From Nibricoccus aquaticus (GTDB lineage Bacteria; Verrucomicrobiota; Verrucomicrobiia; Opitutales; Opitutaceae), in the NCBI RefSeq assembly GCF_002310495.1, contig NZ_CP023344.1, positions 3,737,501-3,801,500 on the forward strand: 64,000 nucleotides of DNA, written 5' to 3'. The notes beneath the pieces are model-generated. The model was not told the DNA's origin. It did not search any database and worked only from the letters and a program-made list of their open reading frames with translations. The position numbers were made by a program, and so were the translations under genes. Below, one piece after another: positions 20,110 through 36,274 of the stretch (position 1 is its first letter; the number at the start of each line of letters is the position of its first letter).

Positions 20110-20224
20110 ATTTCCAGGCCACCGGACAACCGAGGCTTTTTGTTATTCAAAAACCACACCAGTCAACTGGGTGTAAATGCAAGCAAAGCACCTGCACATC
20201 AACCCTACCGTAACTCTCAATCTT

Positions 20225-21616
20225 ATGAAGTCATTCACCACTATCCTCCGCAGCGGAATCGCCGCTTCGGCTATCGTCGCTACCGCCAGCAGCGTCCAGG
20301 CGCAGTCCGGCTCCGATGATGTCCAGCAACTGCGCGAACAGATCCGTCTGCTCGACCAAAAGCTCCGCGTCCTCGAGCGCAAACAGGAGATCAAAGACGA
20401 GACGGCCGCTGCCGCGCCCAAGCCCGTCGCAGTCGCCGCCTCCGACGGTCGTGTCGAGATCACCTCCGGCGACGGTGCCACGTCCCTCCGTCTTCGCGGC
20501 CTCGTGCAGGCCGACTATCGCTGGTTCGACTCGGCCAACGAGCCGGCCGACACGTTTCTTCTTCGCCGCGCCCGCCTGGTTTTCGAGGGCAAGTTCAATA
20601 ACATCTTCAGCTACGTCGTTCAGCCCGAGTTCGCCGGTACCATCCAGATCCTCGACGCCAACGTGAACGTCGCCGTCTCGCCCGCATTCAACGTGCGTAT
20701 CGGAAAGTTCAAGACTCCCGTCGGCCTCGAACAGCTGCAGTCCGACCCCGTCGCTTTCTTCAACGAGCGTTCCGTGGCCACCAACCTCACGCCCAACCGC
20801 GACGTGGGCATCCAGCTTCAGGGCGATGTGCTCAACAAAACGCTCAACTACACCGTCGCACTGCTCAACGGCGTGCCCGACGGCGGCAACAACGTGACGG
20901 GCTCCGCCGACTTCGACAGCGACAAGACCGTCGCCGCCCGCCTGTTCGCCACGCCTTTCGTGAATCAGAAGGACTCGCTCTTCACCGGTCTTGGCGTCGG
21001 CCTCGCCGTAAGCCTCGGCGATTACGCCACGGCCAGCGGCCGCACCGGAGGCTATCGCACGGATGGCCAGCAAACGTTCTTCTCTTACGACGCCTCAGTC
21101 GTGGCTAATGGCCAGGGCGTTACCTGGTCGCCGCAAGGCTACTACTACCGCGGGCCGCTCGGGATTCTCGCCGAGTATGTCGCCTCGTCTATCGAGCTGC
21201 AGCGCGGCGCTCTTCCTGTGCGTGAGGTTGAAAATTTCGGCTATAACCTCTCGGTCGGTTATGTCCTGACCGGCGAAGATTCCACCTACCGCGGAGTCAC
21301 CCCGAAAACTGTTTTCAATCCTTCCGCCGGCACTTGGGGCGCGTTCGAAGTAGTCGCTCGCGTCTCAGGTCTCGACGTCGATGACAGCGTCTTCAGCGGC
21401 GGCGCCGCCGGTCGTTTCGCAGCGCCCAATGTCAGCGCCTCCAAACTCACCGCGTATGGCCTCGGTCTGAATTGGTATCTGTCCCGCTCCGTGCGCGCAG
21501 GCTTCAACCTCTACCAAAACAAGTTCGATCTCGCCCCCGACGCCGTGCCCGCGGCCAACGCGCTTATCGCCGACGATGAGACCGCGTTCATCACGCGCCT
21601 TCAGATTTCGTTCTAA
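20225..21616 (+). CDS. Outer-membrane porin (OprP/OprO-like)
   Basis: A 463-aa porin. It has a signal peptide (MKSFTTILRSGIAASAIVAT...VQAQ), then a short coiled coil (about residues 30-60, DVQQLREQIRLLDQKLRVLE), then a beta-barrel with alternating amphipathic strands ending in the aromatic C-terminal residue (LQISF) needed for BAM assembly. The barrel core (RRARLVFEGKFNNIFSYVVQPEF, RIGKFKTPVGLEQL) matches the phosphate-selective porin O/P family, which conduct anions. In this operon it probably lets sulfate or sulfonates cross the outer membrane. The ATG at 20225 gives a clean signal peptide; an upstream ATG at 20177 would spoil it. Confidence 0.88.
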   Translation: MKSFTTILRSGIAASAIVATASSVQAQSGSDDVQQLREQIRLLDQKLRVLERKQEIKDETAAAAPKPVAVAASDGRVEITSGDGATSLRLRGLVQADYRWFDSANEPADTFLLRRARLVFEGKFNNIFSYVVQPEFAGTIQILDANVNVAVSPAFNVRIGKFKTPVGLEQLQSDPVAFFNERSVATNLTPNRDVGIQLQGDVLNKTLNYTVALLNGVPDGGNNVTGSADFDSDKTVAARLFATPFVNQKDSLFTGLGVGLAVSLGDYATASGRTGGYRTDGQQTFFSYDASVVANGQGVTWSPQGYYYRGPLGILAEYVASSIELQRGALPVREVENFGYNLSVGYVLTGEDSTYRGVTPKTVFNPSAGTWGAFEVVARVSGLDVDDSVFSGGAAGRFAAPNVSASKLTAYGLGLNWYLSRSVRAGFNLYQNKFDLAPDAVPAANALIADDETAFITRLQISF

Positions 21617-21673: not shown

Positions 21674-22663
21674 ATGAAACTTCTCACCACTCTTCTCACC
21701 GTCGCGGCGCTCGCCGCACCGGTCTTCGCGAAAGACATCGAGCTCCTCAATGTCTCGTACGATCCCACGCGCGAATTTTATTCTGAATACAACAAAGCCT
21801 TCTCCGCCCACTGGAAGGCGAAGACCGGCGACAACGTCACCATCAAGCAGTCGCATGGCGGCTCGGGAAAGCAGGCCCGCTCCATCATCGACGGCTTGTC
21901 GGCCGACGTCGCCACGCTCGCTCTCGCCGGCGACATCGACGCGCTTCACACCAACGGCAAACTCATCCCCGCCGACTGGCTCGGCCGTCTCCCCAAACAG
22001 TCCGCGCCCTACACCAGCACGATCGTCTTCCTCGTCCGCGCTGGAAATCCCTTCAAGGTCAAAGACTGGGACGACCTCGCCAAGCCCGGCATCTCCGTCA
22101 TCACGCCCAACCCGAAAACCTCCGGCGGCGCGCAGTGGAACTACCTCGCCGCTTGGGAATTCGCCCGCCGCAAACTCGGCAGCGATGACGCCGCCAAGGA
22201 GTTCGTCCGCAAAATCTACAAGAACGTCCCCGTCCTCGACTCCGGTGCGCGCGGCTCGACGACCACCTTCGTGCAGCGCGGCGTGGGCGACGTCTTCATC
22301 TCCTGGGAAAACGAAGCCTTCCTCGCGCTCAAAGAATTCGGCGCCGACAAGTTCGAGATCGTCGTGCCTTCGCTGAGCATCCTCGCCCAGCCGAGCGTCA
22401 CCGTCGTGGACAAAGTCGTTAAGAAAAAGGGCACCGAGGAAATCGCGAAAGCCTACCTCGAGTACCTCTACTCCGACGAAGCTCAGGATCTCGCGGGTAA
22501 ACATTTCTACCGTCCGACGTCCGATGCCGCTGCCGCCAAGTACGCTGCCAGCTTTCCGAAGATCGAGCTCTTCACCATCGACGACGCCTTCGGTGGCTGG
22601 ACCAAGGCCAAGAAGGAGCACTTCGCCGACGGCGGCACCTTCGACCAGATCTACGCTAAATAA
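21674..22663 (+). CDS. sbp: Periplasmic sulfate-binding protein, copy 1
   Basis: A 329-aa solute-binding protein with signal peptide [19 protein letters not shown]. The mature protein shows the sulfate-binding family blocks [51 protein letters not shown] and [20 protein letters not shown], which build the oxyanion-binding site. It delivers sulfate (or thiosulfate) to the CysTWA permease encoded downstream. A second, diverged copy lies at 23589-24608. The gene follows the porin by 57 bp and is followed by a strong hairpin, which could raise the level of its mRNA. Confidence 0.92.
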
Positions 22664-22771: not shown

Positions 22772-23581
22772 ATGAGCACGATCTCCACCCGTTTTGAAAC
22801 CATCGCGCACGTCGCCGCGCCTGCACCGGCCCCGTCCGTCTCTCAGGAGCTTTCGGAGCGCCTCAACAGCCTCTACGCCCTGTCGCAGCGTTCCCATTAC
22901 ATCTTCGGCTCACCGCTCGGCCCGTTCTATCACAAGGCGCATCACCTCAGCCTGCCGCGCTTCGTCTATTTCGGACCGCACACGCACGACGAATCCCTCC
23001 GCCTCGCTTTCTACGCGGGCCATGAGCACGACGACCTGCGCAGCACCTTCGCGCTGCTTCACCTCGTCGAGCGCCTCGCGATCGCCCCTGACATCGGCCA
23101 GGGCTTGAATCTTTCTTTCTTCCCGCTGCTCGATGCCGCCGGACTTTTTCACGGCGAAACCGGGCGCGATCTCGCTCAAGAGAACTGGGCGCATAGCTTT
23201 GCGCCCGAGATTAACCTCCTGCAAAAAGACGCCCGCTCCCGCGGTTACCACGGCTTCGTCCGCGTACTCACCGCTACTGGCACCGACGAGATTGCCGTCA
23301 GCCTGCGCAGCCAGTTCCCCGCCGCCCTTCAGGCACCCGGCGTCGAATTCATTTCATCCGACGATTTCGACCCGCTCCCTGTCCGCTGGGAATCCGCCAG
23401 CCCGCTCATCAACGACGGCCCGCTCACCTTGAACGACGATCTCCCGTTCAGTGCCTTCGAGCTCACGCTCCGCATTCCCGCCGCCTGGTCGGCCGAGCTC
23501 TACCGCGAAGCCGTCTCCTCGATTCTCCGCCGCTTCATTCTCCGCTACCGCACCCTTCAAGCCTACGGCCAACACCTCTAA
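22772..23581 (+). CDS. Degenerate M14-like protein (paralogue of 24646-25443)
   Basis: A 269-aa protein, not secreted. It aligns along its length with the M14-type protein encoded at 24646-25443: LPRFVYFGPHTHDESLRLAFYAG against IPRFLFTGPEAAHDPIRLGLFAG, LSFFPLLDAAG against LVIYPVCNPTG, and RTLQAYGQHL against RKFIAYAQDL at the C-terminus. The zinc-site residues are not kept: AGIHGDE reads AGHEHDD and TLHADD reads VLTATG, so the zinc His and Glu and the second His are changed. It is therefore probably catalytically dead, or has a new role. It sits between the two sulfate-binding protein genes, and its frame is intact, which argues for selection. Confidence 0.7.
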   Translation: MSTISTRFETIAHVAAPAPAPSVSQELSERLNSLYALSQRSHYIFGSPLGPFYHKAHHLSLPRFVYFGPHTHDESLRLAFYAGHEHDDLRSTFALLHLVERLAIAPDIGQGLNLSFFPLLDAAGLFHGETGRDLAQENWAHSFAPEINLLQKDARSRGYHGFVRVLTATGTDEIAVSLRSQFPAALQAPGVEFISSDDFDPLPVRWESASPLINDGPLTLNDDLPFSAFELTLRIPAAWSAELYREAVSSILRRFILRYRTLQAYGQHL

Positions 23582-23588
23582 ATAAATC

Positions 23589-24608
23589 ATGCCCACCGCG
23601 CTCTCCATCTCCCGCTCCCTGCATCGCATCGCCATCGCCGGTCTCCTCGTGACCTCGGTCGCGCTAACCGCCTCCGCCGCCGAACTGCTCAACGCGTCCT
23701 ACGACGTAACCCGCGAGTTCTACAAAGAATTCAATCCCGCCTTCATCGCCCACTGGAAGGCGAAGACCGGCGAGGATGTCTCCGTGAAACAATCACACGG
23801 CGGCTCCAGTAAACAGGTCCGCAGCGTGATCGACGGCCTTCAGGCCGACGTCGTCACCATGAATCAGGCGCTCGACATCGATCAGCTCGTGAAACCGGGC
23901 CTGATCCCGGTCGACTGGGCGAAACGTCTGCCGAACGACAGCGTCCCGTACACGTCCACGATCTTCTTCATCGTTCGCAAAGGAAACCCCAAGAACGTCA
24001 AAGACTGGTCCGACCTGCTCCGCGACGATGTGAAGTCGATCATCCCGAATCCAAAGACGTCGGGTAATGGCCGATACAGCTACCTCGCCGGCTGGGGCTA
24101 CGCACTCCGCCAGCCCGGCGGCAACGAAGCCAGCGCCCGCGAGTTCGTGAAGAAACTCTTCGCCAACGTCCCCGTCCTCGACGCCGGCGGGCGCGGAGCC
24201 ACCACCTCGTTTGCCAAGAACGGCATCGGCGACGTGCTACTCACCTTCGAAAACGAGGTCTCGCTCACCATCCGCGAATTCGCCGACGAAGGCTTCGAAC
24301 TGGTCGTTCCTACCACGAGCATCCTTGCCGAGAATCCCGTCGTCTGGGTGGACAAGGTCGTGAAGAAGAAAAAGACCGAAGCGCTCGCCAAAGCTTACCT
24401 CGAATATCTCTACACGCCCGAAGCGCAGGAGATCGCCGCGAAGCAAAACTTCCGTCCCGGCGATCCTTCCGTCTTCGCGAAATACTCCAGCCAGTTTCCG
24501 AACATCCCGCTCTTCCGTGTCGCCGACGTTTTCGGCAGCTGGACGAAAGCCCAGCAGGTCCATTTCGCCGACGGCGGCGTCTTCGACCAGATCTACGAAA
24601 AGCGTTAA
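23589..24608 (+). CDS. sbp: Periplasmic sulfate-binding protein, copy 2
   Basis: A 339-aa paralogue of the sbp at 21674. A longer signal peptide (residues 1-30, ending ALTASAA) is followed by ELLNASYDVTREFY, VSVKQSHGGSSKQVRSVIDG, PNPKTSGNGRYSYLAGW and LDAGGRGATTSFAKNGIGDV. The ligand-site blocks are kept but several flanking residues differ from copy 1, so the two may bind different oxyanions (sulfate, thiosulfate) or the same one with different affinity. It starts only 7 bp after the degenerate M14-like gene. Together the order sbp, M14-like, sbp, M14 reads as a tandem duplication of a two-gene module. Confidence 0.92.
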   Translation: MPTALSISRSLHRIAIAGLLVTSVALTASAAELLNASYDVTREFYKEFNPAFIAHWKAKTGEDVSVKQSHGGSSKQVRSVIDGLQADVVTMNQALDIDQLVKPGLIPVDWAKRLPNDSVPYTSTIFFIVRKGNPKNVKDWSDLLRDDVKSIIPNPKTSGNGRYSYLAGWGYALRQPGGNEASAREFVKKLFANVPVLDAGGRGATTSFAKNGIGDVLLTFENEVSLTIREFADEGFELVVPTTSILAENPVVWVDKVVKKKKTEALAKAYLEYLYTPEAQEIAAKQNFRPGDPSVFAKYSSQFPNIPLFRVADVFGSWTKAQQVHFADGGVFDQIYEKR

Positions 24609-24645: not shown

Positions 24646-25443
24646 ATGGTCATGCTCATGTCACCGGACTCGCGCGATCTTCGCACCTTGCTCGGCCCGC
24701 TCCTGGAACTGGCGGAGGAATGCGTTGACGTGATCGGCACCATGGCGGGCTCCTTCTCGCTCAACGGCCGCCGCTACGGCATCCCGCGTTTCCTCTTCAC
24801 CGGTCCCGAAGCCGCGCACGACCCGATCCGCCTCGGCCTCTTCGCCGGCATCCACGGCGACGAGCCCGCCGGTTGCGAAGCCCTCGCGCACCTCCTCGCG
24901 GACCTCGCCGACAATCCCGAAATCGCCAAGGGCTACGACCTCGTCATCTACCCGGTGTGCAATCCAACTGGATACGAGGACAACACGCGCGCCAACCGCG
25001 CCGGCTTCGATCTCAACCGCGAATTCTGGCGCAGCTCCGCGCAGCCCGAGGTCCGCATCCTCGAGCGCGAGCTGCGCACGCATCGCTTCGACGGCATCGT
25101 CACGCTCCACGCCGACGACACCTGCAGCGGCTGCTACGGCTACGCCCACGGTCGCGTTCTCAACGAAGCACTCCTGCGTCCCGCGCTCGATGCCGCCAGC
25201 CGCATTCTCCCGCGCGATGCCCGCGCTAACATCGACGGCTTCGTCGCCACCGAAAGCATCCTCCATGACTGCTTCTGCGGAGTCCTCGCCGCGCCGCCTG
25301 ATCAATCTCCACAACCCTTCGACCTTATCTTCGAAACACCCGCGCTCTCGCCGTTCGACCACCAGGTCGATGCTACCGTCGCCGCGCTACACTCCATTCT
25401 CGGTGAATACCGCAAGTTCATCGCTTACGCTCAGGACCTTTAA
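24646..25443 (+). CDS. M14-family zinc carboxypeptidase-like protein
   Basis: A 265-aa cytoplasmic protein (no signal peptide) with M14/aspartoacylase-type motifs: GIHGDE (zinc His and Glu), NPTGYEDNTRANRAGFDLNREFW (substrate-carboxylate binding Asn-Arg pair), and TLHADD (third zinc ligand His), with a Glu near the C-terminus in FDLIFETPALS that can act as the catalytic base. Relatives are carboxypeptidases, succinylglutamate desuccinylases and DUF2817 proteins. Its place within the sulfate uptake operon, with the stop overlapping the cysT start (TAATG), suggests it acts on a sulfur-containing amide or peptide, but the substrate is unknown. ATGs at 24646, 24652 and 24658 are all possible. Confidence 0.7.
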   Translation: MVMLMSPDSRDLRTLLGPLLELAEECVDVIGTMAGSFSLNGRRYGIPRFLFTGPEAAHDPIRLGLFAGIHGDEPAGCEALAHLLADLADNPEIAKGYDLVIYPVCNPTGYEDNTRANRAGFDLNREFWRSSAQPEVRILERELRTHRFDGIVTLHADDTCSGCYGYAHGRVLNEALLRPALDAASRILPRDARANIDGFVATESILHDCFCGVLAAPPDQSPQPFDLIFETPALSPFDHQVDATVAALHSILGEYRKFIAYAQDL

Positions 25444-26300
25444 TGTCCCTCTTCTGCAAAGAACGCTCCGCGCTGCCGGGCCTCAACCTGTCGCTCGGCT
25501 TCACGCTTTTCTATCTCGGCCTCATCGTGCTCGTGCCGCTCTCCGCCGCCTTCCTGAAAACTTTCGGGATGACGTGGGACGAGTTCGCCGCCGCCGTCAC
25601 GTCGCCGCGCGTGCTCGCCTCGTACAAGATCACCTTCTTCGCCTCGCTCGCCGCCGCGCTGGTTAATTCCGTCTTCGGCCTGCTCGTCGCCTGGGTGCTC
25701 GTGCGGTATTCATTTCCCGGACGCCGCATCGTCGATGCGCTCGTCGATCTTCCGTTCGCTTTGCCAACCGCCGTCGCCGGCATCGCTCTTACCGCGATCT
25801 ACGCGAAGAACGGCTGGGTCGGCCAGTTCCTCGATCCCGACGGCGCGCATCGGATTCTTCCGCACGGCATCAAACTCGCGTTCTCCGAGATCGGCATCTT
25901 CATCGCGCTCACCTTCATCGGCCTGCCGTTCGTCGTCCGCACCGTTCAACCGGTTCTCGAAGAACTGGAGCCCGAGCTCGAAGAAGCCTCCGCCACGCTC
26001 GGCGCGAACCGCTGGCAGACGATCACGCGTGTTCTCCTTCCCGAACTTTTCCCTGCGCTGCTCACCGGCTTCGCGCTTTCGTTCGCCCGCGCACTCGGTG
26101 AATACGGCTCAGTCGTTTTCATCTCGGGCAACATGCCGATGAAAACGGAAATCACGCCGCTGCTCATCATCACGAAGCTGGAGCAATACGACTACCGAGG
26201 CGCGACGGCCATTGCCGTCGTGATGCTCTGCGCCTCCTTCACGCTGCTGCTCCTCATCAACCTCATCCAGAAGTGGAGCCGCCGTCACCACCGCGTATGA
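25443..26300 (+). CDS. cysT: Sulfate ABC transporter permease CysT
   Basis: A 285-aa inner-membrane permease with about six membrane segments. The EAA-type cytoplasmic loop ELEEASATLGANRWQTITRVLLPELFPALLTG contacts the CysA ATPase, and the segment DALVDLPFALPTAVAGIALTAIY is typical of CysT/CysU. It pairs with CysW to form the channel for sulfate or thiosulfate delivered by the two binding proteins. Its ATG overlaps the previous stop by one base (TAATG). A repeat-bearing spacer of 170 bp, unusual inside a permease pair, separates it from cysW. Confidence 0.93.
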   Translation: MSLFCKERSALPGLNLSLGFTLFYLGLIVLVPLSAAFLKTFGMTWDEFAAAVTSPRVLASYKITFFASLAAALVNSVFGLLVAWVLVRYSFPGRRIVDALVDLPFALPTAVAGIALTAIYAKNGWVGQFLDPDGAHRILPHGIKLAFSEIGIFIALTFIGLPFVVRTVQPVLEELEPELEEASATLGANRWQTITRVLLPELFPALLTGFALSFARALGEYGSVVFISGNMPMKTEITPLLIITKLEQYDYRGATAIAVVMLCASFTLLLLINLIQKWSRRHHRV

Positions 26301-26470: not shown

Positions 26471-27412
26471 ATGGCCGCCGTCACCGCCGCACTTTCCGCT
26501 CGTCGCGAAACGTCTTCTTCGCACAACGCCCCCCGCGCCACCCAAGATCCTGCCTGGGTGAAGTGGACGCTTCTTTCCGTAGCGCTCCTCTTCCTCGCGT
26601 TCTTCCTCGTGCTCCCGCTCGTCGCGGTTTTCGCCGAGGCATTCCGCCGGGGCATGGGCGCGTACTTCGCCGCCTTCACCGACTCCGATGCGCTCGCCGC
26701 GATCAAGCTTACGCTCATCACGGCGGCCATCTCCGTGCCCGCGAACCTCGTCTTCGGCGTCGCCGCTTCCTGGGCCATCGCGAAGTTCAACTTTCGCTGG
26801 AAAAGCCTTCTCATCACGCTCATCGATCTGCCGTTCGCCGTCTCGCCGGTGATCTCCGGCCTGATCTTCGTTTTGGTTTTCGGCGCGCAGGGCTGGTACG
26901 GCCAGTACCTCGAATCCACCAACCCTTCATGGCCTTGGTTGCACGCCTGGCTGGTCCAGCAGGATTTCAAAATCATCTTCGCCGTCCCCGGCATCGTCCT
27001 CGCCACCGTATTCATCACGTTCCCCTTCGTCGCACGTGAGCTCATCCCGCTCATGCAGTCGCAAGGCACGGACGAGGAAATGGCCGCGATCACCCTCGGC
27101 GCGAGCGGCTGGCAGACTTTCTGGCGCGTCACCGTGCCCAACATCAAGTGGGGCCTCTTCTACGGCGTCATCCTGTGCAATGCCCGCGCGATGGGCGAAT
27201 TTGGCGCGGTATCCGTCGTCTCCGGACACATCCGCGGCGAGACCAACACTATGCCGCTCCACGTCGAGATCCTCTACAACGAATACAACTTCGTCGCTGC
27301 CTTCGCCGTCGCCTCGCTCCTCGCTTTTCTCGCCCTCGTCACGCTCGGCCTCAAAAGCCTCGTCGAGTGGCGTCACGCCCAGTCCCTGCGTACCGAAACC
27401 CTCGATCGCTGA
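26471..27412 (+). CDS. cysW: Sulfate ABC transporter permease CysW
   Basis: A 313-aa permease. After a hydrophilic 30-residue N-terminus come about six membrane segments, with [20 protein letters not shown] and the EAA loop [27 protein letters not shown]. The family block [31 protein letters not shown] is characteristic of CysW. It forms a heterodimer with CysT. The ATG at 26471 follows the repeat-bearing spacer by a few bases; 9 bp separate its stop from cysA. Confidence 0.94.
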
Positions 27413-27421
27413 TTTTCTGTC

Positions 27422-28474
27422 ATGAGCATCCACGCCTCCGGCATCACCAAAACTTTCGGCAAATACACCGCGCTCGCGAACGTCGATTTCACCGCACCGA
27501 GCGGGAAACTCGTCGCGCTCCTCGGTCCTTCCGGGTCGGGCAAGACCACGCTCCTGCGCATCCTCGCCGGACTGGAATTCGCCGATGCCGGCAGCGGCCG
27601 CGTGCAATTCGACAACGAGGACGTGACCTCCGTGCCCGCCGGCAAACGCGGCGTCGGCTTCATGTTTCAGCATTATGCGCTGTTCCGCCACATGACCGTG
27701 TTTGAGAACATCGCCTTCGGCCTCCGCGTGCGCGGCCGCGCGTCACGTCCGTCCGAAGACAAAATCACCGAACGCGTCCGCGAGCTTCTCCACCTCGTGC
27801 AACTCGATGGCTTGGAAAAACGTTTCCCCACGCAGCTCTCCGGCGGCCAGCGTCAGCGCGTCGCCCTCGCCCGTGCCCTCGCCGTGCAGCCCAAGGTCCT
27901 CCTGCTCGACGAACCCTTCGGCGCGCTCGATGCCAAGGTCCGCAAAGAACTCCGCCGCTGGCTCCGCAAATTTCACGACGAGATTCACATCACCACGGTC
28001 TTCGTCACCCACGACCAGGAAGAGGCCCTCGAAATCGCCGACGAGGTCGTCATCATGAACCAGGCGAAGGTGGAGCAAGTCGGCTCGCCGCAAGAAGTGT
28101 ACGACCGCCCCGCCACGCCCTTCGTCCACCGTTTCCTCGGCAACGTGAACATCCTTCGCGACGCCGCCGCCTGGGGGAACACCGGCCCCATCCACGACAA
28201 CGGCCGCCTCGCCGCCGACGGCCTCTTGTATGTCCGCCCGCACGACATCGAGGTCCACCCGCACGGCAGCGAAACCAGCGGCATTCCCGCTGTCCTCCGC
28301 TACATCCATGCCGCCGGCCCGCAGGCCCAGCTCACGTTCGAAGTCATCGCCACCGGCGAACAGGTCGAAGCCGACATCACCCGCTCTGGGCTTGCCGAGT
28401 TGAACCTAAAGCCAAACGATCTGGCCCTCTTGAAACTCCGGCCCACCCACGCCTTCCAAGACTACGCGATCTGA
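27422..28474 (+). CDS. cysA: Sulfate/thiosulfate import ATPase CysA
   Basis: A 350-aa ABC ATPase that powers sulfate import. Walker A is GPSGSGKT (35-42), the Q-loop lies in [20 protein letters not shown], the signature is LSGGQRQR, Walker B is [11 protein letters not shown] and the switch His is in FVTHDQEEA. The C-terminal ~110 residues form the TOBE-like regulatory extension typical of CysA ([10 protein letters not shown]). It follows cysW by 9 bp and closes the transporter part of the operon. Confidence 0.96.
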
Positions 28475-28504: not shown

Positions 28505-29497
28505 ATGGCTAAAATATACAACGACATCACCGAAACGATCGGCAACACCCCCCTCGTTCGTCTCAATCGTACCGCAGCCGCGCACGGCGCTCAGGCGGAG
28601 ATCCTCCTCAAGCTCGAGTTCTTCAACCCGCTCTCCAGCGTCAAGGACCGCATCGGCTACGCGATGATCGAGGACGCTCTCAAGTCCGGTAAAATCACCA
28701 AAGACTCCGTCATCATCGAGCCCACCTCCGGCAACACCGGTATCGCGCTCGCCTTCGTCGCCGCCGCGAAAGGCCTCAAGCTCGTCCTCACCATGCCCGA
28801 GACGATGTCTCTCGAGCGCCGCAAGCTTCTCAAGATCCTCGGCGCCCGCGTCGTCCTCACCGAAGGACCGAAGGGCATGAAGGGCGCCATCGCCAAGGCC
28901 GAGGAACTCGCCGCCAAGATCCCCGGCGGCATCATCCTCCAGCAATTCGCCAACCCGGCGAATCCCGCGATCCACCGCGCCACCACCGCCGAAGAAATCT
29001 GGCGCGACACCGACGGCAAAGTGGACTTCGTCGTCTCCGGTATCGGCACCGGCGGTACGATCACCGGCGTGGGCGAAGTGCTCAAAGCCAAGAAGCCCGG
29101 CGTGAAAATCATCGCCGTCGAGCCCGACGCCTCGCCCGTCCTCTCCGGCGGCCAGCCCGGCCCGCACAAACTCCAGGGCATCGGCGCCGGCTTCATCCCC
29201 GCCGTCCTCAACACGAAGGTTTACGACGAAGTCATCCGCGTGAAGGAAGTGGACTCCGGCCCGATCTCGAAACAGGTCAACACGACCGACGGCATCCCGG
29301 TCGGCATCTCCTCCGGCGCCGCGATCTGGGCGGGCATCCAGCTCTCGAAGCGTCCCGAAAACAAGGGCAAGCAGATCGTCGTGATCATCCCCTCGAGCAG
29401 CGAACGCTACCTCTCGACCTGGCTCTTTGCCGACATCAGCGCCGAGACCGATTCGATCGACGACCTCATCCCCGCCGCCGCTCCGGCGAACGCCTGA
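28505..29497 (+). CDS. cysK: Cysteine synthase A (O-acetylserine sulfhydrylase)
   Basis: A 330-aa PLP enzyme that makes cysteine from O-acetylserine and sulfide. The PLP lysine lies in [18 protein letters not shown], the substrate loop is [12 protein letters not shown], and the phosphate-binding loop is [13 protein letters not shown], all as in CysK. Length matches the family. It is 30 bp after cysA, so uptake of sulfate and the last step of its assimilation share an operon; genes for sulfate reduction itself are not in the window. Confidence 0.95.
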
Positions 29498-34646: not shown

Positions 34647-35264
34647 ATGAAACTCTCCAAACGCGGCGAATACGGCTTTCGTGCTATGATCGACATCGGT
34701 CTGGCGCATGAGCTCGGTCGCGAACTCGTCCCGCTCGGCGAGCTGGCGGAGAATGGGAAAATCCCGACGAAGTTTCTTGAGCAAATCCTGCTCGATCTGC
34801 GTCAGGGCGAATTCCTGACCAGTATGCGCGGCAAATACGGCGGCTATAAACTCGCCCGCCCCGCGAAGGACATCATCGCCGGCCAGATCGTGCGTTACCT
34901 CGAAGGTCCGCTCGCGCCCATCGGCTGCGTGAGCCAGACGGCTTACGAGAAATGCTCATGTCCCGATGAAGTTCACTGCGGCCTGCGGATGCTCATGCTC
35001 GATGTGCGCAACGCCATCGCGAACATCCTCGACCGCTACACCATCGCCGACGTCGTCGAGGTCACGCTCCGCAAGATGCGTCGCGACAACGTGAATCTTC
35101 CTTACGTTTCCAGCCCGCGCGCGGGTGAGAGCCGCCGCATCCACGGGAAATCCAAACGCGGTCCGGCCGCACGCACCGCCGCGCCCGAAAACAGAAAACC
35201 GTCGCCGATGACCACGCCGTTCGAAACTGGTCTCGACGACTTTCTTTATCGTGAAGGTATTTGA
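34647..35264 (+). CDS. Rrf2-family regulator with cluster-type cysteines
   Basis: A 205-aa Rrf2 transcription factor. The N-terminal winged helix (MKLSKRGEYGFRAMIDIG...RGKYGGYKLARP) is followed by a cysteine motif C94, C103, C105 and C111 (CSCPDEVHC). This resembles the Fe-S ligands of IscR, NsrR or RirA and differs from CymR, which has none. A basic and Pro-rich tail of about 60 residues (RGPAARTAAP) follows the usual end of the family. It is coupled by TGATG to the sulfonate-binding protein gene, so it most likely controls the ssuABC-like operon and perhaps the cys operon, reading sulfur or Fe-S status. Confidence 0.85.
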   Translation: MKLSKRGEYGFRAMIDIGLAHELGRELVPLGELAENGKIPTKFLEQILLDLRQGEFLTSMRGKYGGYKLARPAKDIIAGQIVRYLEGPLAPIGCVSQTAYEKCSCPDEVHCGLRMLMLDVRNAIANILDRYTIADVVEVTLRKMRRDNVNLPYVSSPRAGESRRIHGKSKRGPAARTAAPENRKPSPMTTPFETGLDDFLYREGI

Positions 35265-36274
35265 TGACGCGCCGCGCATTCTTTCTCCCGCTCGTGCTGG
35301 CGGTGGCGTCGATGGCGGCGCTGCTGGGGGGCTGTCGCGCGAAAACATATTCTGAGCCGGTCTCGCGCGCGGGAAAAAAAATCCTGCGCGTTGGCTACTT
35401 TCCCAACATCACGCACGCCCAAGGCGTGATCGGCAGCACGCTCACCGCCGAGAAGAAGGGCTGGTTCGAAGAACGCCTCGGTCCCGACGTGGAGATCCAG
35501 TGGTTCGTGTACAACGCCGGTCCAAGCGCGATGGAAGCGATCTTCACGGACTCGGTTGATCTCACGTACGTCGGCCCCAGCCCGGCGCTCAACGCCTTCA
35601 TCCGCGCACGCGGTGACGACATCCGCATCGTTTCCGGCTCGGCCCGCGGCGGCGCGGCGCTGCTGGTGCGCCCGGGTGCAGGGATCGAGAAGCCCGAAGA
35701 TTTTCGCGGCAAAAAACTCGCCACGCCCCAGCTCGGCAACACGCAGGATGTGGCCGCGCGCGCGTGGTTGAAGGCGCAGGGGTTTCACATGACCCAGCTC
35801 GGCGGCGATGTGTTCGTGCTGCCGACAGCGAATCCCGATCAGCTCGCGCTTTTCAAACAAGGTCAGATCGACGCCGTGTGGACCGTCGAGCCCTGGGTGA
35901 CGCGCATCGAAACGGAAGCGGGCGGCAGCGTGTATCTGGAACAGCCTGACGTCGTCACGACCGTGCTCGTCGCCAGCAAAAAGGCGCTCGATCACCGGAG
36001 CGAACTCATCGGACGTTTCGTGAAGGCGCATCACGAACTCACTGACTGGACCGTGGCACATCCCGCCGAGGCGCAGGCCATCGTGCAGCGCGGGCTCACG
36101 GCGATCGTTCATCGCGAAGTGCCGCTCAAACTCGTTTCCGCCGCGTGGAAACGCCTGACTTTCTCAAACGACATCACCCTCCACTCCATCGAAGGCCTTG
36201 TGGCCGATGCCCGCGGGCTCGGTTTCATTCGAGGCGACGTCGAGCTCCAACCCCTCATCCATATCCTCCAGTGA
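35264..36274 (+). CDS. ssuA: Sulfonate/taurine-type ABC substrate-binding lipoprotein
   Basis: A 336-aa binding protein of the SsuA/TauA/NrtA superfamily. A lipobox signal (residues 1-24, ALLGGC) is followed by LRVGYFPNITHAQGVIGSTL, FVYNAGPSAMEAIFTDSVDLTYVGPSPAL and a pair of hinge-linked lobes. The GPS and VEPWV blocks fit aliphatic-sulfonate and taurine binders; nitrate or thiamin-precursor binders are alternatives. The ATG lies at 35264 and overlaps the rrf2 stop. Being membrane-anchored it works with the SsuB/SsuC pair encoded next. Context with Rrf2 and the cys operon makes a sulfur source the best guess. Confidence 0.78.
   Translation: MTRRAFFLPLVLAVASMAALLGGCRAKTYSEPVSRAGKKILRVGYFPNITHAQGVIGSTLTAEKKGWFEERLGPDVEIQWFVYNAGPSAMEAIFTDSVDLTYVGPSPALNAFIRARGDDIRIVSGSARGGAALLVRPGAGIEKPEDFRGKKLATPQLGNTQDVAARAWLKAQGFHMTQLGGDVFVLPTANPDQLALFKQGQIDAVWTVEPWVTRIETEAGGSVYLEQPDVVTTVLVASKKALDHRSELIGRFVKAHHELTDWTVAHPAEAQAIVQRGLTAIVHREVPLKLVSAAWKRLTFSNDITLHSIEGLVADARGLGFIRGDVELQPLIHILQ

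Follow-up and report, generated by a model that had tools for sequence, protein, structure and literature searches.

A zinc-site-deficient M14-fold protein conserved in a sulfate-uptake operon of Nibricoccus aquaticus, and its possible place in a CysK-centred assembly

In the cysteine synthase complex, the C-terminal tail of CysE enters the active site of CysK, and in H. influenzae 80% of the CysE–CysK interaction energy comes from the C-terminal isoleucine, according to the portion of PMC9547175 drawn on here. The same portion gives DFSI as the MtbCysE tetrapeptide, 2Q3C as the MtbCysK1–DFSI complex, and DFSI, MNYDI, MNWNI and YGDGI as the ends of published CysK binders; the pentapeptides that bound best had hydrophobic residues in third position and acceptors in fourth position. 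In the sections of PMC12895370 used, deletion or substitution of the C-terminal isoleucine abolished binding of CysE to CysK, and CdiA, EGL-9 and CymR are listed as further CysK partners with isoleucine motifs. The CymR–CysK pair is also described in the part of PMC4961446 consulted. In plants, as set out in an excerpt of PMC4263312, the cysteine synthase OASTL binds the STAS domain of the transporter SULTR1;2, inhibits the transporter and gains activity. In the literature searched on CysK with CysA, CysH, sulfate transporters or a link to M14 proteins in Verrucomicrobia, no report was found of tails such as those described below.

The locus analyzed lies in a 64,000-nucleotide stretch of N. 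aquaticus DNA, called the window throughout. Nine genes on the same strand run in the order porin, sbp1, dead M14, sbp2, intact M14, cysT, cysW, cysA and cysK, with an Rrf2 regulator further on. Transporter genes and cysK were assigned by NCBIfam models, each over its own cut-off. The features are:

20177..21616, + strand: porin, Porin_O_P (PF07396), by Pfam match; it precedes sbp1 in most of the related loci
21674..22663, + strand: sbp1, sulfate-binding protein; TIGR00971 over cut-off
22772..23581, + strand: dead M14 protein, from homology, lost ligands and predicted fold; ends AYGQHL
23589..24608, + strand: sbp2, second sulfate-binding protein; TIGR00971 over cut-off; not constant in relatives
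24646..25443, + strand: intact M14 (AstE/AspA-type) protein, from PF24827 over cut-off, zinc ligands and AF2 model; ends AYAQDL
25443..26300, + strand: cysT permease; TIGR02139 over cut-off
26471..27412, + strand: cysW permease; TIGR02140 over cut-off
27422..28474, + strand: cysA ATPase; TIGR00968 over cut-off; C-terminus QDYAI, a CysE-type tail
28505..29497, + strand: cysK cysteine synthase, the proposed hub; TIGR01139 over cut-off; best PDB match 2q3b/2q3c (398.6 bits)
34647..35264, + strand: Rrf2 regulator, a possible further part; C-terminus REGI; best equivalog CymR, below its cut-off

The M14 fold and the lost zinc site

The open reading frame at 22772–23581 starts with ATG and encodes 269 residues. 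The first-pass annotation had read it as an M14-fold pseudoenzyme alignable over its whole length with the intact protein at 24646–25443. BLASTP recovered this relationship over residues 24–163 (E = 5e-16, 29% identity), so homology of the remainder rests on the predicted fold; a MAFFT alignment of the whole proteins gave 26% identity. No Pfam or NCBIfam model, PF24827 and PF00246 included, matched the dead protein at E <= 1. Its AF2 model is a complete domain (pLDDT 87.6) that matched 4b6z_C with Z 21.6 and rmsd 2.9 over 230 aligned residues at 16% identity, and the solved structures closest to it by fold were M14 carboxypeptidases (4b6z, 3l2n and 3k2k). Sequence comparison and predicted model together indicate an M14 fold with homology to the intact copy. 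The protein is probably cytosolic, with no signal peptide seen by eye.

In line with the first-pass statement that all three zinc-ligand positions are changed, H70, E73 and H155 of the intact copy are replaced by Glu, Asp and a non-His residue in the dead one. The Asn-Arg carboxylate site (DLNR to DLAQ) and the catalytic Glu (FETP to LRIP) are gone as well. Judged by ligands, Asn-Arg pair and catalytic Glu, the protein does not appear to be an active zinc hydrolase of the M14/AstE-AspA kind.

The intact partner, by comparison, carries the HxxE motif, the Asn-Arg pair, the third His and the catalytic Glu. It scored 38.7 bits with PF24827 (cut-off 25) and 30.1 bits with PF00246 (cut-off 21.6), the curated score and the complete zinc site placing it in PF24827. 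With the N-acetylornithine deacetylase model NF052223 it reached 57.9 bits, against an equivalog cut-off of 400. All three zinc ligands were kept in 26 of 26 intact-type copies, and the catalytic Glu is Gln in one genome (G092; G numbers are our handles for genomes). The solved structures nearest by sequence to the intact profile were 2qvp, 3b2y and 3ieh.

Conservation, descent and gene neighborhood

Of 115 related genomes, that of N. aquaticus included, 19 carry a close dead copy whose reading frame is open and whose zinc site is missing; the copies other than the window's own are 47–62% identical to it. None of the dead-copy matches listed from the 115 genomes contained an internal stop. The dead-type set numbered 27 copies, of which 25 had been labelled dead and the other two are second copies in G092 and G109; at least two of the three zinc ligands were lost in every one. 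Residual ligands were the Glu in G005 and in one G028 copy, the third His in G015 and the first in G092; the remaining copies keep none of the three. Nei–Gojobori (NG86) dN/dS was 0.13–0.29 in five dead pairs and 0.14–0.27 in five intact pairs, where dS is only rough because pS reaches 0.67. Open frames and these ratios disfavor decay, and point to a gene under purifying selection. The earlier description of the frame as open and well kept therefore holds, and the pseudoenzyme reading itself is supported: the relatives offered neither a homologue with a complete zinc site in the same place nor signs of decay.

In a quick tree of 109 proteins, 19 dead copies formed one clade (SH-aLRT 99). The best such tree places the G331 dead copy among intact ones, which needs two losses of the zinc site; a repeated origin is not claimed, since the well-supported branches force only one change.

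Gene neighborhoods were read in 71 stretches, made up of 31 from near relatives and 40 picked from the matches of a 286-genome survey of the class. In that survey, intact M14 matches above 150 bits occurred at 103 places in 96 of the 286 sampled genomes, and at 102 of these places the match extends to position 265 or 266 of the 266-position profile. The intact protein occurs across the class, in most cases within a sulfate operon or next to cysK; the sulfur-linked module suspected at first pass is thus supported, and is wider than proposed. Intact M14 genes stand beside cysK in G117, G133 and G161, with no cysT, cysW, cysA or binding-protein gene recognized in the stretch; several other stretches (e.g., G254, G205 and G229) likewise have an intact M14 gene without any of these.

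Among relatives the operon order is largely kept, the more constant neighbors of the M14 genes being CysT, CysW, CysA and CysK. The first-pass annotation had grouped the M14 pair with sbp1 and sbp2. This grouping was not sustained as a constant one: in the 19 stretches where both M14 types were recognized, the two genes adjoin or only a binding-protein gene intervenes, and that gene was present between them in five and absent in 14. Whether the dead and active genes are kept together had also been raised. In the relatives set, 24 genomes have the intact operon-type gene; 19 of them also have a dead-type copy, but four (G003, G027, G043 and G058) have the intact gene alone, G052 being cut by the contig end. 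Conversely, a dead copy without an intact operon-type copy at E <= 0.001 was found in G071, G008 and G005, G064 again being cut by the contig. Since each type occurs without the other, an obligate dead/intact pair, or heterodimer, was rejected.

In G008 and G331 the dead gene lies directly before cysK, and no sulfate-transporter gene was recognized in either stretch. A Cys_Met_Meta_PP enzyme and a DUF3034 protein are encoded at each of these two places (L047 9628–14002 and L200 5235–11048, respectively), and at the G331 place there is in addition an Rrf2 protein ending GEGI. By eye, the G005 dead gene sits alone among apparently unrelated genes. Genome G028 (C9, L050, 5530–16154) has two sulfate M14 operons, and close to the first of them lie two more dead M14 copies of highly divergent sequence.

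C-termini of the sulfur proteins

The window CysA ends QDYAI, a tail of the D-aromatic-x-Ile type by which CysE docks into CysK; its C-terminal Ile and the hydrophobic residue at -3 are the sequence features expected of a candidate docking tail. Across the 71 stretches, 35 of 46 CysA proteins end in Ile, 25 of the 46 in aromatic-x-Ile (DFSI itself in G065), and 11 in another residue. Similar ends were found on CysH (28/30), where the tail directly follows the ECGLHE motif, E. coli CysH stopping at ECGLHEG, and on the Rrf2 regulator (24/30), as D/E-Y-x-I in 17 and as MYYI or MWYI in seven. Control sulfur proteins carried aromatic-x-Ile ends in 0 of 30 (CysD), 1 of 30 (CysN) and 1 of 28 cases (NIR_SIR, two rows without a stop having been dropped). 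The tallies for Rrf2, CysN, CysH, CysD and NIR_SIR comprise 30 loci each among the matches listed; for CysH these were drawn from 46 genomes over the cut-off, a match of any strength being present in 76 of 95. Two CysN-like proteins are exceptions in their ends: the G051 cysN product (L297), ending GDYVI, and one in G134 (L176, 3128–4489), ending EEFTI.

Other operon proteins lacked the aromatic-x-Ile end (porin 0/32, sbp 0/67, cysT 0/50, cysW 0/47 and cysK 0/34), and it occurred in four of 550 other long open reading frames, three of which look like CysE by eye. Against this background, Fisher p-values were 1.5e-27 for CysA, 4e-41 for CysH and 6e-33 for Rrf2; these are too small, and the counts likewise overstate, because the rows are related. 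Serine acetyltransferases were divided. The best CysE-type protein per relative ended in W-x-I or Y-x-I in 25 of the 25 read (26 were fetched and one was not recovered), and these CysE-like proteins score below the TIGR01172 cut-off (138.6–158.2 bits), N. aquaticus's own copy falling just below the EpsC cut-off (148.7 vs. 150). Among CysE proteins over the TIGR01172 cut-off, only two of 30 ended in aromatic-x-Ile and 13 in Ile.

Outside the phylum, none of eight CysA and none of eight CysH proteins had the aromatic-x-Ile end, each set being E. coli plus seven plasmid-borne proteins picked for spread (from 40 listed rows for CysA and 20 for CysH), with one plasmid-set CysA only CysA-like by match length. 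Sulfur enzymes with an Ile-ended tail may also exist beyond the phylum, since Aeromonas caviae CysH (L361) ends GSGI and E. coli CysM (L202) ends GAGI. CysA proteins from outside the class end DYVI (G449, L204) and EYVI (G438, L209); the tail may therefore predate the class or have been gained again.

The window Rrf2 protein scored 116.8 bits with the Rrf2 domain PF02082 (cut-off 30) and 93.8 bits with the CymR model NF047409, its best equivalog, whose cut-off is 195. In G003, G004, G015, G016, G020, G023 and G024, comparison of coordinates places a tailed Rrf2 gene at most about 1 kb upstream from the porin gene heading the sulfate operon. In the window, the Rrf2 stop overlaps the start of an open reading frame for an NMT1-type binding protein (35261–36274, PF13379), followed by an ABC ATPase-like frame identified by eye; this may be a second sulfur-uptake cluster.

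The M14 proteins have a conserved end of their own. Leu or Ile was the last residue in 66 of 67 intact-type and 25 of 26 dead-type rows of the 71 stretches, against 61 of 550 other long open reading frames. Rows were typed by the nearer profile, intact or dead, and two of the 67 intact-type rows (G188 and G331) lack the zinc motif. Ile was the last residue in only 22 of the 67 and two of the 26. Some relatives end like docking tails (GWGI in G109, SWGI in G092, GFGI in G028 and, among dead copies, AWHI in G004 and G034). Leu is the last residue of both M14 proteins in the window, so the dead one, ending QHL, lacks the C-terminal Ile expected for docking into CysK. In the AF2 model of the intact protein, pLDDT is 56 over the five C-terminal residues. 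In the dead model the end is drawn as a helix up to residue 268 (block pLDDT 75), and the C-terminus may thus belong to the fold. The idea that CysA tails and M14 ends vary inversely was considered and set aside: raw counts pointed that way, with 22 Leu and two Ile for CysA with aromatic-x-Ile, and seven Leu, 13 Ile and one neither for CysA without it, but only three supported independent tree pairs stand behind them and a sign test shows nothing.

A proposed role and its comparison with known systems

The observed loss of the zinc site, the conservation of the gene and its linkage to importer genes and cysK are joined here in one reading, to which we assign a probability of roughly 0.4: the dead M14 protein would be a conserved non-catalytic partner, with a binding or regulatory task, in a CysK-centred assembly coupling sulfate import to cysteine synthesis. 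The gene would have arisen by duplication of an M14 (AstE/AspA-type) protein of the sulfate-uptake/cysteine module of Verrucomicrobiia, and zinc binding would have been lost afterwards, while purifying selection maintained both fold and C-terminus. A CysK active site free of O-acetylserine would hold the C-terminal tails of CysE, CysA, CysH and the Rrf2 regulator; in sulfur shortage, O-acetylserine would build up and displace the tails, thereby freeing import and reduction. The dead protein might act as a scaffold or modulator, either through its own conserved C-terminus or through a surface facing CysK, CysA or the intact M14 protein, and this step is the weakest part of the model. We infer the CysK-centred complex from the CysE-type tails on CysA, CysH and Rrf2, which would suggest a module organized round CysK, and are less sure of the dead protein's place in it.

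A broader formulation, which we put only a little short of even odds, would treat CysK as a hub throughout Verrucomicrobiia. CysA, CysH, a CymR-like Rrf2 protein and serine acetyltransferase would have interchangeable D-aromatic-x-Ile tails, all docking into the same CysK active site, and O-acetylserine alone would thereby set import and reduction together with acetylation and transcription, the M14 pair being an accessory. Here too, the tails argue well for the CysA, CysH and Rrf2 part; the M14 part is weaker, because both M14 proteins of the window have a terminal Leu and, in the sections of PMC12895370 used, replacement of Ile abolishes CysE binding.

The main rival, rather doubtful in our view, is that the dead copy binds the intact M14 protein and controls or stabilizes it, with no role at CysK. 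Their common descent speaks for such a pseudo-subunit, as does the closeness of the two genes in the 19 stretches that have both; against it are the three genomes in which a dead copy but no intact operon-type one was found at E <= 0.001, and the four with the intact gene alone. Another alternative is a changed catalyst, in which acidic replacements of the ligands build another metal or catalytic site. That possibility draws on the Asp or Glu found for His, the Asp for Glu and the frequent Glu for the third His, and on GFDHRD and LET/VES-type sequences at the ligand places of many orthologues. Yet the window copy, with its Glu and Asp, lacks an acidic residue in the third position, some copies have Asn or Met at the second, and the Asn-Arg pair and catalytic Glu are lost, which leaves a new active site improbable.

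Absence of the dead copy from the four genomes with only the intact gene would suit a relic on its way to loss, kept in the operon by chance, but we hold this to be very improbable given the open frames in all matches, the low dN/dS and the conserved end. Least probable of all is that the intact M14 protein is a carboxypeptidase trimming the Ile-ended tails of sulfur proteins, with the dead copy as their reader. The M14 clan does hold carboxypeptidases, among them the fold matches of the dead model, and operon and pathway are rich in such tails; however, the best Pfam match of the intact protein is a family of small-molecule deacylases (PF24827), and the dead copy is without the carboxylate-binding Asn-Arg pair.

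A pseudoenzyme kept beside an active paralogue in a nutrient-import operon points to a non-catalytic task for the M14 fold in sulfur uptake. With the AstE/AspA family (PF24827) and the M14 carboxypeptidases, the window proteins have fold and motif order in common. They differ from these enzymes in that the dead copy is without the HxxE motif, the Asn-Arg pair, the third His and the catalytic Glu, and in that both window types have a conserved short C-terminus; no common end was seen among 14 third-clade M14 proteins elsewhere in these genomes.

As far as their sequences indicate, the tails of the CysE-like, CysA, CysH and Rrf2 proteins are of the same D-aromatic-x-Ile type as in the known cysteine synthase complex, with the difference that they are also carried by an importer ATPase and a PAPS reductase. 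If the proposal is true, that complex would no longer have a single partner but would also take in the importer, the reductase and the regulator. The window Rrf2 protein resembles CymR, which acts with CysK in Bacillus subtilis, in being a putative regulator of the Rrf2 family that is encoded near sulfur genes and whose tail ends in Ile; it differs in that its score lies below the CymR equivalog cut-off and a long extension precedes the tail. In the plant SULTR1;2–OASTL pair the transporter is unrelated and a STAS domain takes the place of the short tail, so the likeness is one of analogy only; the assembly proposed here would, if it exists, be a bacterial counterpart of that contact between transporter and cysteine synthase.
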